Origin: an uncultured Pelagibacteraceae bacterium
Lineage (GTDB): Bacteria; Pseudomonadota; Alphaproteobacteria; Pelagibacterales; Pelagibacteraceae
NCBI GenBank assembly: GCA_902594675.1
Contig: CACJNE010000007.1
Location: 1-64,000, forward strand
Reading direction: 5' to 3'
Length of the DNA: 64,000 nt
Position 1 is the stretch's first letter, and each line of letters starts with the position of its first letter. Below, in pieces: positions 6,851 to 14,947 of the stretch. The position numbers and the translations under genes are program-made. Under the pieces are notes generated by a model. It was not told where the DNA came from and searched no databases. It worked only from the letters and a program-made list of their open reading frames with translations.

Positions 6851-7195
6851 ATGAATTTTGATTTTATTTACAAGATATGTACAAAATCTGAGTGGAGTGA
6901 GGCAAAACAAAATAATGTTTTTAAAGGCACTGCATTAGATTTAAAAGATGGTTATATCCATTTTTCAGATAAAGATCAGGTCAAGCAAACACTAAATAAG
7001 TTTTATATTAATCAAACTAATTTAATAATTCTTAAAGTTGATGCTCTAAAATTAAAAAATCTAGTTTGGGAGCAATCGACGGATGGCAACATGTTTCCAC
7101 ATTTATACTCAGATCTAGATTTAGATTTTGTAGTTAAAGAATATATTATTGATTTAAAAGATGATGGTAAGCATAATCTGCCAGATGAACTTTAA
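6851..7195 (+). CDS. DUF952 family protein
   Basis: A 114-residue cytoplasmic protein matching the DUF952 pattern: an N-terminal FIYKICTKSEW, then GYIHFSDKDQV and a distal E-x-FPHLY segment with a final DGKHNLP. The fold is related to the ADP-ribosyl transferase-like/RNA 2'-phosphotransferase group, but no activity is established for the family. The gene starts 1 base after the AhpD-like stop. The end faces the convergent SMR gene, with only 3 bases between stops. Confidence 0.75.
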   Translation: MNFDFIYKICTKSEWSEAKQNNVFKGTALDLKDGYIHFSDKDQVKQTLNKFYINQTNLIILKVDALKLKNLVWEQSTDGNMFPHLYSDLDLDFVVKEYIIDLKDDGKHNLPDEL

Positions 7196-10981: not shown

Positions 10982-11977
10982 TTATATCCAGTGAGGATAG
11001 GGAAGACCTTTTTCTTGTAAAAAAGATTTATTAAACATCTTTGAGTTGTATTTATCAGATTTATCACAGAGAATTGTCACAATTGTTTTACCTGGACCTA
11101 AAAGTTTACCCAATCTTATTGCTCCAGCAATGTTTACTCCACAACTTGTCCCTAAACTTAAACCTTCCTTTTCAATTAAATCAAATAAAACAGGCAAAGA
11201 CTCATGATCACTTATTGAAAATGCTCCATCAATTTTTGCTTTAGCAAAATTTGCAGTAACTCTACTAGATCCAATACCTTCAGTTATTGAACCACCTTCA
11301 CTCTTTAATTCACCATTTTCAATGTAACTATAAAGAGAGGAACCTGTTGGATCCGATAAATATATTTTAATATCTTTATTTTTTTCTTTTAAAAAACTAC
11401 TTACTCCAGCGATAGTCCCTCCAGTTCCAGAGGAACAAACAAATCCATCAACCTTTCCATCAGTTTGTTCCCATATTTCGGGTCCAGTGGTTTCGTAATG
11501 TCCCTTCATGTTTGCGGTATTGTCAAATTGATTAGCCCATACTACGCCATGATTATTACTACTTTTTAATTCATCAGCTAAACGACCAGCATACTTAACA
11601 AAATTATTTTCATCTTTGTATGGTTTTGGTGGTACCAATCTTAAATCGGCTCCAATATTTCTTAATAAATCTTTTTTTTCTTGTGTTTGATTGTCATTCA
11701 TTACAATAATTGTTTTATATCCAATAGAATTTCCTAATAAACACAAACCAATACCCGTATTTCCAGCAGTTCCTTCAACAATTATTCCACCTTTTGTAAT
11801 TAATTTTTTTTCCTCAGCATCTCTAATTAATGCTAAAGCTGCTCTGTCTTTTACTGATCCACCTGGATTTTGATATTCTGCTTTTCCATAAATGTTACAT
11901 CCAGTAATCTCAGATGCCATTTTCAATTTTATTAGTTGAGTATTCCCAATACTTTCTAAAAAATTATTTTTAATCAT
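10982..11977 (-). CDS. cysK: Cysteine synthase family protein (O-acetylserine sulfhydrylase)
   Basis: A 331-residue PLP enzyme that makes cysteine from O-acetylserine and sulfide. PLP lysine is K43 in NPGGSVKDRAA; the phosphate/asparagine loop is EGTAGNTG (68-75), where the usual PTSGNTG serine is Ala, a variant typical of one cysK-like subfamily. GSSGTGGT-type (SSGTGGT) PLP-phosphate loop is present mid-protein. C-terminus ends PYPHWI. It lies 4 bases downstream of the serine acetyltransferase gene, so both steps of cysteine synthesis are in one unit. Cystathionine beta-synthase is a less likely alternative. Confidence 0.9.
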   Translation of the reverse strand: MIKNNFLESIGNTQLIKLKMASEITGCNIYGKAEYQNPGGSVKDRAALALIRDAEEKKLITKGGIIVEGTAGNTGIGLCLLGNSIGYKTIIVMNDNQTQEKKDLLRNIGADLRLVPPKPYKDENNFVKYAGRLADELKSSNNHGVVWANQFDNTANMKGHYETTGPEIWEQTDGKVDGFVCSSGTGGTIAGVSSFLKEKNKDIKIYLSDPTGSSLYSYIENGELKSEGGSITEGIGSSRVTANFAKAKIDGAFSISDHESLPVLFDLIEKEGLSLGTSCGVNIAGAIRLGKLLGPGKTIVTILCDKSDKYNSKMFNKSFLQEKGLPYPHWI

Positions 11978-11981
11978 TAAA

Positions 11982-12560
11982 TTATCTTTTTTCTGTTTTA
12001 GTCTCTTCAGTTACTGCGTAAGGTTTAAATTCTTCACTAGAAGTTCCAATATTTCTTGCAGGTATGCCAACCATTACCGCATTATCTGGAACATTATTAG
12101 TAACAACAGCATTAGCTCCGATCTTTGCATTTTTTCCAACCACAACTGGCCCAAGTATCTGAGCACCCGAACCAACAACTACATTTTCTTTTAATGTAGG
12201 ATGTCTTTTAATATTTCTTTGATCATCTGAATTAATACTCGGTGATATACCTCCTAATGTTGCCATATGGTAAATAGTTACATTATCACCTATATCTGAA
12301 GTTTCGCCAATTACCACTCCCATACCATGATCAATAAAAAGATTTTTGCCAATCTTTGCGTTTGGATGAATTTCAATACCAGTTAAAAATCTTGAAAATT
12401 GAGAAATTATTCTTGCAACGAGATGAAATTTTGCTACTGCAAAAAAGTTTGCAATTCTATGGAAGAATACTGCTTTTACTCCAGGATAAGTAAGTATTAA
12501 ACTTATCTTTGAATTAGCTGCTGGATCTCTTTTAATTATAGACTCTAAAAAATCATTCAT
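11982..12560 (-). CDS. cysE: Serine O-acetyltransferase, short form
   Basis: A 192-residue left-handed beta-helix acetyltransferase. It makes O-acetylserine from serine and acetyl-CoA. The conserved block [40 protein letters not shown] is followed by [24 protein letters not shown]. The protein lacks the long N-terminal helical domain of the E. coli enzyme (about 270 residues), as in other short bacterial/plant-like forms. Immediately upstream of cysK. The catalytic His-Asp pair is within the beta-helix (IDHG and the HMATLGG loop). Confidence 0.92.
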
Positions 12561-12588
12561 AAATGTTTAAGATAAATTTTAAATTAAA

Positions 12589-12699
12589 CTACTTATTACA
12601 ACAGCAGTTTTCTGATGATGGTTTGCAATCACAATTTTTACAAACACATCTATCACAAGAACAGTTCTTACATTTGCAGTGTGAATTATTGCATGACAT
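12589..12699 (-). CDS. Metallothionein-like cysteine-rich peptide
   Basis: A 36-residue ORF (ATG 12699 to TAG 12589) with 12 cysteines at positions 3, 8, 10, 13, 15, 18, 20, 23, 25, 32, 33 and 34. These form repeated CxC and CxxC units (CKC, CSC, CVC, CDC) and a terminal CCC, with one His at position 7. This is a typical layout for a small metal-thiolate cluster protein, although I cannot match it to a named metallothionein family. The ribosome site is weak. It lies between cysE and the persulfide dioxygenase gene on the same strand, so thiol supply and metal or sulfide handling are neighbours. Too short for usual gene callers. Confidence 0.75.
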   Translation of the reverse strand: MSCNNSHCKCKNCSCDRCVCKNCDCKPSSENCCCNK

Positions 12700-12753
12700 A
12701 AGTCTTATATAATTATTAATTTTTTAAAAACAACACTTTTATAAAGCTTGATT

Positions 12754-13446
12754 TTAAAGTTCTTTGAGCGTCAAACCCTTTAAATTAGCTGGAACTGCAA
12801 CATCCATCATTTTTGGATTTGCAAGATTAAGATTGTCCATTATTTCTGCATATTCCTCTTTCGAGCTTACTTGAAGTCTTGGATTGTTATTCTTTTCGTT
12901 ACCTATTGTTGAATTTTTTTTTCCATTATAATCGTGGGCAGGGTACACAAGTGTTTCTTCAGGAAGTTTTAACAATTTACCAAATAATGACTCATAAGCC
13001 TGATGAGCACTGCCATTTTGAAAGTCAGTTCTACCTGTTCCATTAATTAAAAGAGTATCCCCTGTAAAAACTCTATCTTTCATAAGATAGCTATAAGAAC
13101 AGTCAGTATGACCAGGGGTGTAAATAGCTTTAAGGTTAATATTTTCAATACTCACATTTTCTTCATCTTTTAATTTAATATCAATAACTTCAGATTTAGA
13201 ATTCTCACCCATTATACGAGTACAATTTGTTCTTTTGTTTAATTCGTTTAATCCAGTTACATGATCTGCATGAATATGTGTATCTATTACCTTAACCAAT
13301 TTTAGATCTAAATTTTCTAAATATTTAATATATTCATCAGAATGTTCAATCACAGGGTCAATGATTAATGCTTCTCTCCCTTTACCACTCGATATAATAT
13401 AAGTATAGGTTGATGATTTTTGATCAAATAGTTGATTAAATATCAT
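12754..13446 (-). CDS. ETHE1-type persulfide dioxygenase (metallo-beta-lactamase fold)
   Basis: A 230-residue metallo-beta-lactamase-fold protein. The metal motif THIHADH gives H57, H59, D61, H62; H113 (TPGHTDCS) and D130 (FTGDTLL) complete the site. The GTGRTDFQNG segment is diagnostic of ETHE1-like enzymes, which use one iron bound by the equivalents of H57, H113 and D130. These enzymes oxidise glutathione persulfide to sulfite. Glyoxalase II is less likely because of RTDFQ. The neighbours (cysK, cysE) support a sulfur role. Divergent from the peroxiredoxin gene. Confidence 0.88.
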   Translation of the reverse strand: MIFNQLFDQKSSTYTYIISSGKGREALIIDPVIEHSDEYIKYLENLDLKLVKVIDTHIHADHVTGLNELNKRTNCTRIMGENSKSEVIDIKLKDEENVSIENINLKAIYTPGHTDCSYSYLMKDRVFTGDTLLINGTGRTDFQNGSAHQAYESLFGKLLKLPEETLVYPAHDYNGKKNSTIGNEKNNNPRLQVSSKEEYAEIMDNLNLANPKMMDVAVPANLKGLTLKEL

Positions 13447-13524: not shown

Positions 13525-14184
13525 ATGCTTAAAATAAACAGTATGTGTCCAGATTTTCAATGCAAAACTACTGAGGGAGATATTTCTTTTCATGAGTGGC
13601 TTGGAGATAGTTGGGGCGTTTTATTTTCTCACCCAAAAGATTTTACACCAGTTTGTACAACAGAATTAGGTTCATTAGGACAGATGAAAGCTGAGTTTGA
13701 TGCAAGAAATGTAAAAGTTATTGGATTAAGTGTTGATGGGGTAGAGGATCATAAAAAATGGTTGAATGATATTAAAGATGTATCTGGAACAATGCCAGAT
13801 TATCCTATAATCGCTGACGAAGATTTAAAAGTTGCAAAACTTTTTAATATGTTAGAAGCCGATGCAGGGACAACATCAATGGGTCGAACTGCAGTTGATA
13901 ATGAGACTGTAAGAACTATTTTTGTGGTAAGACCTGATAAAAGAATTGGTCTTTATTTAACTTATCCTATGGCAACAGGTAGAAATTTCCATGAAATTTT
14001 AAGAGCCATAGATTCAATGCAACTGACCGCTAAACATAAAGTTGCAACTCCAGCTAATTGGAAAAAAGGTGAAGATGTAGTTATTCTTCCAGAAGTTAAA
14101 GATGAAGAGGCTAAGAAAATTTATCCAGATGGTTGGGAAACAGTTAAACCATATTTAAGAAAAGTACCTGACCCTTCTAAATAA
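13525..14184 (+). CDS. 1-Cys peroxiredoxin (Prx6-type)
   Basis: A 219-residue peroxiredoxin that reduces hydrogen peroxide or lipid hydroperoxides. The active site is SHPKDFTPVCTTELG with peroxidatic Cys44; the only other cysteines are C8 and C13 near the N-terminus, and no C-terminal resolving cysteine exists, hence the 1-Cys class. The long C-terminal domain (about 160-219) typical of Prx6 is present. A good AAGGAG site precedes the ATG. Followed by a hairpin terminator shared with the convergent racemase gene. Confidence 0.93.
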   Translation: MLKINSMCPDFQCKTTEGDISFHEWLGDSWGVLFSHPKDFTPVCTTELGSLGQMKAEFDARNVKVIGLSVDGVEDHKKWLNDIKDVSGTMPDYPIIADEDLKVAKLFNMLEADAGTTSMGRTAVDNETVRTIFVVRPDKRIGLYLTYPMATGRNFHEILRAIDSMQLTAKHKVATPANWKKGEDVVILPEVKDEEAKKIYPDGWETVKPYLRKVPDPSK

Positions 14185-14201: not shown

Positions 14202-14244
14202 AATAATCTCAGTTTTAGTTAATAAATACTGAAACTGGGTTATT
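14202..14244. terminator. Bidirectional hairpin terminator between convergent genes
   Basis: Inverted repeat aataatctcagtttta / actgaaactgggttatt with G-U pairs and an A/T-rich loop, followed on the plus strand by gttttttt. It covers the stop codon of the minus-strand racemase gene, so it can serve both directions. Confidence 0.75.
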
Positions 14245-14947
14245 GTTTTTTTAACTTTTTATATTTTTTCATTGAGACATTTGCTACGAGAAGATTTGGA
14301 TCTACAAACACTTTAGATTGTTTAATTTTTTTAAAAGATTTATAAGCAAATATTGCAATAGGCAACTCTGTACAACCTAAAATAATTTTCTTACATTTGA
14401 TTTTCATAAGATAATTTACTGCTGGCCTAATTGCTTTCTCAGCTTCTTTTATTTTACCCATTTTGACAAATTTAATTGATTTATTTACTGATGATTTTTG
14501 AAGACTGGAAGTTGGACTTACTAAATAAAAACTTTTGTCAAAATATTTATTATAAACTTTAGTATTCAATGTAGCTTCGGTGGATAATATACCTATTTTG
14601 GAGTTTTTTTTACAACTTTTTAGGGTATCTAAGTATACTTCTTTAGGCATACTAAGAATTGGAATTTTAATTTTTTTACTTAGATCATCATACCAGTAGT
14701 GAGCAGTATTGCATGGTATTACAATAAATTTGCAACCATTTTTTTGTAATTTCTTACAACCTTCAACCAAAGCATTTAAAACATTGTAATATTTTTTTAT
14801 GTTTTCTGGTCGTTTAGGTGTATTAGATTTATTGTATAAAACAAACATTGGGTAGTCTTGATCTAGTTTACCTCTATTTATTTTAGCAAGTTTATTGCAA
14901 AAATCTAAACCAGCTTGTGTCCCCATTCCTCCAAGAATACCAATCAT
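14240..14947 (-). CDS. Aspartate/glutamate racemase family protein
   Basis: A 235-residue PLP-independent racemase-family protein. The first catalytic cysteine is C79 in IPCNTAH, the second lies in the LGCTELP motif near residue 190; both are intact. The N-terminus IGILGGMGTQAG is the family's phosphate/carboxylate loop. Aspartate racemase is favoured over MurI because of the GGMG start and CTELP motif, but substrate is uncertain. Convergent with the peroxiredoxin gene; separated by 59 bases from the divergent alpha/beta hydrolase. Confidence 0.85.
   Translation of the reverse strand: MIGILGGMGTQAGLDFCNKLAKINRGKLDQDYPMFVLYNKSNTPKRPENIKKYYNVLNALVEGCKKLQKNGCKFIVIPCNTAHYWYDDLSKKIKIPILSMPKEVYLDTLKSCKKNSKIGILSTEATLNTKVYNKYFDKSFYLVSPTSSLQKSSVNKSIKFVKMGKIKEAEKAIRPAVNYLMKIKCKKIILGCTELPIAIFAYKSFKKIKQSKVFVDPNLLVANVSMKKYKKLKKQ

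Follow-up and report, generated by a model that had tools for sequence, protein, structure and literature searches.

The open reading frame at positions 12589-12699 of the 64,000-nucleotide stretch of DNA analyzed here (hereafter, the window) is a real, conserved gene encoding a cysteine-rich peptide. Our preferred reading, to which we assign a probability of about 0.4, is that it plays a dual role, combining a metallothionein-like peptide with a translation-responsive RNA hairpin that would limit the expression of cysE and cysK downstream. Comparison with relatives reveals selection on the coding sequence, a conserved locus, a conserved promoter position and a conserved hairpin over the end of the gene, with promoter and hairpin retained in shortened copies. 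The features referred to below are as follows.

12754..13446, minus strand: gene for an ETHE1-like persulfide dioxygenase (PDO) of the MBL fold (PDB 4ysb_A, E=3.6e-69; Pfam Lactamase_B)
12728..12733, minus strand: -35-like element TTGTTT, at -34 to -29 from the A of the peptide ATG
12706..12711, minus strand: -10-like element TATATA, at -12 to -7 from the A of the peptide ATG
12589..12699, minus strand: cysteine-rich peptide ORF of 36 aa with 12 cysteines and a TAG stop at 12589-12591
12586..12610, minus strand: RNA hairpin with an 8-bp stem and a 9-nt loop, assessed by folding against synonymous-codon controls
12561..12588, minus strand: 28-nt junction separating the peptide stop from the start of cysE, inspected by eye alongside empty sites
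11982..12560, minus strand: cysE, serine O-acetyltransferase (NCBIfam TIGR01172, 211.8 bits against a cut-off of 210.65)
10982..11977, minus strand: cysK-type cysteine synthase (NCBIfam NF007989, 514 bits against a cut-off of 387)

Translation of the minus strand from 12699 to 12589 yields MSCNNSHCKCKNCSCDRCVCKNCDCKPSSENCCCNK followed by a stop, with the 12 cysteines in 36 residues that an earlier, sequence-only reading of this DNA had counted. That reading had also placed the frame on the strand of cysE and the persulfide dioxygenase, naming none; all three lie on the minus strand, and the plus strand across 12589-12699 is not open. The peptide lacks Phe, Tyr and Trp, and has a single Pro and no hydrophobic stretch. 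Its cysteine fraction (0.333) is the highest among the window's 206 ATG-initiated ORFs of 30 aa or longer, where the runner-up reaches 0.156, and lies beyond the top value (0.200) of 200 first-order Markov windows, in agreement with the earlier assertion that such a composition is unlikely by chance. A chance ORF or non-coding element, for which the very short length of the frame and its lack of a database family might speak, deserves practically no credence: it is refuted by the conservation, detailed below, of frame, locus, promoter and codon-level selection, together with the cysteine fraction.

The peptide is a member of a SAR11 family without annotation, in which lengths run from 36 to 44 aa and 11 cysteines are all but invariant. 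The sequence-only reading would have been refuted had close relatives conserved neither cysteines nor frame, and it withstood this check: a profile built on 37 rows detected full-length relatives in 42 of 201 genomes of the genus at E≤0.01, which preserve the frame and nearly all cysteine positions. A single-sequence search had matches in 40 of the 201 at E≤1, one of which (G112) is spurious. With an 18-row profile, relatives were found in 22 of 297 genomes of the family (genera g1, g3, g4 and g14; one weak match dropped) and in 26 of 247 genomes of the order, all of genus g1 (three weak matches dropped), whereas in the class and phylum draws the window's own genome was the sole match (1 of 289 and 1 of 319, respectively). 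Matches in G112, G254, G415, G118 and G080 and the second matches in G059 and G214, all with E above 0.008, were rejected as chance; dropped weak matches were partial or ran through stops, and that in G112 lacked the cysteine frame.

A pattern search of named genomes, fixing M1, C3, N5, C8, C10, C13, C18 and C20, matched at least 119 stretches. Among the matches listed, 111 are members of the SAR11 peptide family, 110 of them in SAR11-named records and one in a record named Polaribacter, presumably misbinned; the other eight of the 119 (L113, L125, L131, L139, L146, L170, L173 and L192) were set aside as non-family. The alignment script additionally required most of the cysteine frame and missed L048 and L122, the latter of which runs up to the end of its stretch; some loci represent one genome twice, and duplicates were removed by sequence. 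Since pattern and extraction script fix cysteine columns, conservation at these columns arises in part from the selection of members, and the single-sequence search, the 37-row profile and the 18-row alignment, in which 11 cysteines are invariant, constitute cleaner evidence than this pre-selected set. The five cysteine columns outside the pattern, namely the two of the CxC behind the variable loop and the three of the CCC, which the script loosely required, are kept in 123, 123, 122, 122 and 123 of the 123 non-redundant rows among the matches listed. Single cysteine substitutions occur in L006, L011, L012, L196 and L048 (Tyr at the first Cys).

Codon comparison indicates that the family is under protein-level selection. 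The pN/pS ratio is 0.00-0.03 at cysteine columns, a value that partly reflects how members were selected, and 0.34-0.35 at non-cysteine columns of close pairs, rising to 0.58-0.64 in distant, saturated pairs. There is no conserved His, the best column holding His in 38 of 123 rows among the matches listed, and some relatives carry one or two aromatic residues (Phe, Tyr or Trp), unlike the window peptide. One 44-aa member (L070, genome G025) has an extra inserted CxC and 13 cysteines. In the broad sense, metallothioneins are small proteins, about one-third cysteine, with CxC and CxxC motifs and few or no aromatic residues, and the window peptide has the size, cysteine content, motifs and lack of aromatics of this class. 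The cysteine framework, codon-level selection and the genus-wide profile search thus bear out the sequence-only reading in taking the frame for a genuine, conserved metallothionein-like coding gene; that reading overlooked the promoter position, the hairpin over the CCC codons and stop, and a possible role as leader of cysE-cysK.

The order of genes in the genus is PDO, peptide, cysE and cysK. The window PDO also resembles human ETHE1 (PDB match 4chl_A, E=2.3e-49), although its scores against NCBIfam models all fall below the respective cut-offs. Among the matches listed, 98 of the 111 family stretches are directly flanked by PDO on the upstream side and by cysE on the downstream side; in 11, a single neighbor is visible because the stretch ends on the other side, and two have cysE but no PDO. 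By coordinates, PDO and cysE are adjacent in 63 of the 201 genus genomes: 42 of these have the full gene between them, two have short versions with in-frame deletions, and 19 have an empty site (24-52 bp in the 11 that were read, the other eight being judged from coordinates). These 19 genomes do without the peptide, which weighs against a dual role. On a PDO and cysE tree of 126 rows, built by a quick method, presence and absence require at least four changes. The shortened versions encode 19 aa (genome G048, L066) and 21 aa (G149, L067), arose through internal deletions on separate branches of the tree, and retain the promoter, the N-terminus, the CCC and the hairpin.

In genus g4 (L060-L064), the peptide unit is located elsewhere, with a sarcosine/dimethylglycine-dehydrogenase-like gene and msrB as neighbors. 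The order in L060 is peptide, cysE and msrB, and cysE likewise follows the peptide in L061 and L062. In the g4 genomes G455 and G416, cysE is missing at the peptide site, was not found anywhere in the assemblies (75% and 80% complete, respectively), and the peptides keep all 11 cysteines and end 3 nt before msrB. The proximity of an ETHE1-like PDO as upstream neighbor in the genus might suggest that the peptide carries persulfide or sulfane sulfur in concert with this enzyme. We consider this very improbable, given that none of the five g4 loci with the peptide shows a PDO match within the surrounding 3 kb, and that PDO-family matches occur in 178 of the 201 genus genomes against 42 for the peptide.

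Upstream of the gene, information content across 101 unique ATG-anchored regions among the matches listed reaches 1.4-1.9 bits at the TTG of positions -34 to -32 and 1.4-1.7 bits at columns -12 to -8 (TATAT). Given the usual promoter spacing, the position of the -35 and -10 elements would place the start of transcription on the ATG itself, from which we infer that the peptide mRNA may be leaderless. A simple hexamer search returned mixed spacings, and a promoter scanner found no excess; as these general scans did not single the promoter out, the argument rests on ATG-anchored conservation. Some empty sites (e.g. L074, L078 and L081) have a TATATA-type element before the cysE ATG and others (L071-L073 and L077) do not, whereas in filled sites the TATATA-type element precedes the peptide instead. 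By eye, no such element stands before the cysE ATG in the window junction (12561..12588), unlike in some of the empty-site relatives.

The second conserved feature is an RNA hairpin spanning the three consecutive Cys codons (12598-12606), the last two codons, the stop and 3 nt beyond. When the last nine codons and 14 nt were folded against synonymous-codon controls, the window hairpin had a z of -2.65, and of -2.53 (p=0.024) in a repeat; with six more downstream bases, these values became -1.69 and p=0.07. Over 90 unique family regions among the matches listed, the mean z is -1.78 and half have p<0.05, whereas 57 ends of other ORFs in the window average -0.38, with 14% below that threshold. 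A hairpin also lies over the stop codon of a peroxiredoxin gene in the window that faces a convergent racemase gene (13525-14184 and 14240-14947; z -1.76, p 0.07), and is possibly a terminator shared by the two.

Covariation was assessed on the 47 of 67 unique regions outside the 36-aa clade in which CCC and stop are separated by exactly two codons, leaving out the 20 with other endings and 14 regions of the 36-aa clade. In these 47 gap-free regions, 89.6% of core-helix cells are paired, against 83.3% in shuffles; the covariation score is 0.294, against 0.191 (sd 0.010) in shuffles and reached by none of 500; and 22 cells are changed on both sides, against 6.5. No slid register attains the pairing, covariation score or two-sided-cell values of the core helix. 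Two coarser measures discriminate less: the number of pairs with two-sided change (three) is attained by 100 of 500 shuffles and exceeded at slide +3 (four), and that of further pair types (11) is attained by 56 of 500 and equaled at slide +3. A 12-pair version of the helix scores 0.347 against 0.207, with coarser measures that are not distinctive (62 and 189 of 500), and RNAalifold predicts the inner helix unaided.

In one pair of the helix, the codon preceding CCC contributes its second base and the last codon its third. The states of this pair in the 47 regions are G-C in 24, C-G in 13, A-U in two, U-A in one and unpaired in seven, with at least six changes among standard pair states on the tree; counts of this sort are inflated by relatedness. 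The final residue of the peptide accordingly tends to follow the one ahead of CCC (Ser going with Asn, Thr with Lys). A covarying hairpin is present in many, but not all, SAR11 clades. In the 36-aa clade of the window itself, the hairpin lies in a shifted register, a few bases away, and there is almost no variation to test, and clades ending in CCCC-N and CCCC-N-D have z near zero and no significant hairpin. It survives in the shortened copies, with z -2.5 (p 0.017) and z -3.6 (p 0.002). The g4 loci with cysE have z -3.0, -3.4 and -1.7 (p 0.012, 0.005 and 0.074), whereas in the two g4 loci without cysE the hairpin is not detectable (z +0.2 and +0.1). The hairpin does not reach the cysE start, and folds of the whole junction, comprising the gene and the start of cysE, are mostly unremarkable in 14 loci (z -1.7 to +1.8), which locates the signal at the stop codon. 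Searches against Rfam returned two sub-threshold matches only.

Under the dual role that we favor, the ORF would be the first cistron of a cysE-cysK transcription unit, and its product would bind soft metal ions in metallothionein fashion through a thiolate cluster of 11-12 cysteines; the cysteine framework makes the buffering role for Zn, Cu or Cd put forward by the sequence-only reading plausible. At its end, the leaderless message would fold the three consecutive Cys codons and the stop into a hairpin. A ribosome well supplied with Cys-tRNA would complete the peptide and depart, the hairpin would form, and cysE-cysK would be held down through weak termination or uncoupling; ribosomes slowed on the Cys codons of the tail would keep the hairpin open, and cysE-cysK would be expressed. 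As a cysteine-hungry peptide and leader of cysE-cysK in one, the gene may thereby couple the synthesis of a metal-binding peptide to that of cysteine. Counting against this reading are the clades without a significant hairpin, the weaker covariation measures, the scarcity of T-runs after the stem and a hairpin that leaves the cysE start uncovered.

The principal competing explanation, which we regard as possible if somewhat improbable, is a free-standing metallothionein-like gene whose hairpin serves as its own terminator or 3' stabilizer, with cysE-cysK unregulated and expressed via read-through or from another start. This would account for the strict cysteine spacing and for the persistence of the 11-Cys peptide in g4 where cysE is missing, and stop hairpins are not unique to this gene, as indicated by the 14% of other window ORF ends that fold below p=0.05 and by the peroxiredoxin end. 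In one member (L028) the hairpin and its T-run are called terminator-like, but the window copy and L040 are not, and runs of at least four T after the stem occur in 22 of the 67 unique regions outside the 36-aa clade and are absent in the other 45, so that an intrinsic terminator is not general. Nor does a free-standing gene sit easily with a hairpin built on the CCC codons themselves, with its retention in shortened copies that have lost most of the cysteine framework, or with the window, where no cysE promoter of the kind present in some empty-site relatives is seen after the gene.

At the other extreme, the ORF might be purely a cysteine-responsive leader peptide, or attenuator, for cysE-cysK, with a functionless product. 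The position ahead of cysE-cysK, the leaderless-type promoter, the CCC beside the stop and the covarying hairpin all agree with such a role, and it is precisely promoter, CCC and hairpin that both shortened copies preserve. As befits an attenuator, a run of Cys codons lies close to the stop and cysE comes next, the exceptions being the two g4 genomes with msrB in its place, and in many clades there is an RNA structure able to respond to ribosome position. A leader alone is nevertheless unlikely, because it leaves the fixed CxC/CxxC spacing unexplained, and because non-cysteine residues are under moderate purifying selection (the pN/pS of 0.34-0.35 in close pairs) and two g4 genomes maintain all 11 cysteines with cysE missing at the site. 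The fixed spacing of 11 cysteines, which exceeds the needs of an attenuator, likewise counts against the leader part of the dual role.

Peptides with the same N-terminal framework occur beyond SAR11. The N-terminal cysteine pattern was found in 48 IMG/VR contigs (L205-L252; for instance on the plus strand at 3682 of L248 and on the minus strand of L232), in peptides of 20-62 aa; these came from the pattern scan, as a tblastn alignment scan of the viral contigs returned no relative. The framework M-x-C-x-N-x2-C-x-C-x2-C-x4-C-x-C is fixed by the search in the viral and archaeal peptides, but in 15 of 28 unique viral peptides it continues outside the pattern with x5-C-x-C, as in SAR11, and one viral peptide matches the SAR11 profile at 97.6% over 30 columns. 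By eye, the gene content of several of eight viral surroundings examined resembles that of marine T4-like phages. None of the 48 viral loci has a match to PDO, cysE, cysK or four other window neighbors (tblastn, E≤1e-5). Against annotated phages, tblastn gave one weak match for a phage peptide (E 10) and none for a peptide of the SAR11 family. Two archaeal contigs (L125 and L131; the record names are Halobacteriales archaeon and Marine Group IV archaeon) encode a nearly identical 51-aa peptide beside seemingly chromosomal genes and near an ORF resembling a doubled histone fold. In contrast to the SAR11 family, the phage and archaeal peptides have no CCC tail, and several have a Shine-Dalgarno-like AGGAG upstream.

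The gene following the peptide in L232 contains a NifU-like Fe-S scaffold domain (PF01106), and L210 has a weak Fe-S_biosyn (IscA-type) match about 600 bp downstream (E 0.049, below the Pfam cut-off). In L170, a Tenericutes MAG, a minus-strand ORF that opens some 196 bp ahead of position 6996, counted on the same strand, encodes a 126-aa protein, ferredoxin-like by eye, with the framework twice in its C-terminal half.

The homology of short, cysteine-rich peptides found by pattern is unprovable. The occurrence of the framework in marine phage and archaeal contigs, with viral loci that lack cys genes, favors a stand-alone metal-binding module, and so lends weight to the free-standing alternative; together with the missing CCC tail, it speaks against a pure leader. 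An extended form of the preferred reading, in which a mini-metallothionein and a cysteine- or metal-sensing leader act in cis, built from a module common to SAR11, marine T4-like phages and marine archaea and completed by a SAR11-specific CCC-stop hairpin, strikes us as possible if somewhat improbable.

SAR11 bacteria are among the most abundant in the ocean. A Pfam-profile survey is reported to have found few detoxification genes in Pelagibacter (PMC4161860). As the SAR11 peptide family matches no Pfam profile, surveys of this kind cannot see it. If the dual role holds, streamlined-genome cells would possess an unrecognized element for metal buffering and cysteine control, linking metal load, cysteine demand and cysteine supply in cis. 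The phage and archaeal peptides, in turn, suggest a wider marine family of mini-metallothioneins, easily overlooked at 20-62 aa.

The family finds no counterpart in the databases searched: the window peptide has no Pfam, NCBIfam, PHROGs or PDB family match, and none of 18 family members matches any Pfam family at E≤10. PDB profile matches (mucin and LDL receptor, E 0.12-7.8) and the PHROG match of one phage peptide (E 3.4) were dismissed as noise. A 26-aa Neurospora metallothionein used as a control also matches no Pfam family, which means that Pfam does not detect all short metallothioneins. The titles and abstract openings among the matches listed on metallothioneins in Pelagibacter, SAR11 or cyanophages, on cysE leaders and on leaderless SAR11 transcripts, a body from which subscription papers are mostly absent, contain no description of the family, and a similar body on cysteine-rich small proteins of marine phages, again mostly without subscription papers, gave no match. 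In a 2009 RNA screen of Pelagibacter (PMC2704228), the main text consulted names neither cysteine nor cysE.

Membership of the prokaryotic metallothionein family SmtA/BmtA (PF02069) was rejected, as neither Pfam nor hhalign gave a match, while an SmtA control matched at 4.5e-21. Like SmtA and BmtA, the SAR11 peptides are small and cysteine-rich, have CxC pairs and would probably form a soft-metal thiolate cluster; unlike them, they are 36-44 aa long (56 aa for the SmtA control), end in a CCC tail, and lack the zinc-finger part and any conserved His. SmtA typically has a zinc-finger-like fold with His ligands. With 11 cysteines, the SAR11 family has as many as the alpha domain of mammalian metallothionein, which binds four metals.

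Two leader systems offer parallels to the proposed regulation. CutF is described as a metal-binding leader with a stem-loop, a Sec signal and a proline-rich stalling end (PMC9973294). The SAR11 gene shares with CutF and CruR a short, putatively metal-binding peptide encoded upstream, and with CutF a stem-loop next to its end; it differs in having neither Sec signal nor proline-rich stalling end, in a stem-loop that stays off the downstream start, and in downstream genes that make cysteine rather than copper proteins. In mycobacteria, leaderless polycysteine short ORFs precede cysteine biosynthesis genes (Canestrari et al. 2020, as excerpted in PMC9094748, PMC9031893 and PMC13236596), and leaderless attenuation at Cys codons has a precedent in PMC9031893 and PMC9094748. 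The SAR11 gene resembles these ORFs in its predicted leaderless-type start, its run of Cys codons and its position as a short ORF ahead of cysteine genes, and departs from them in belonging to another phylum, in the metallothionein-like fixed spacing of its 11 cysteines, and in a hairpin built on the CCC codons and the stop.
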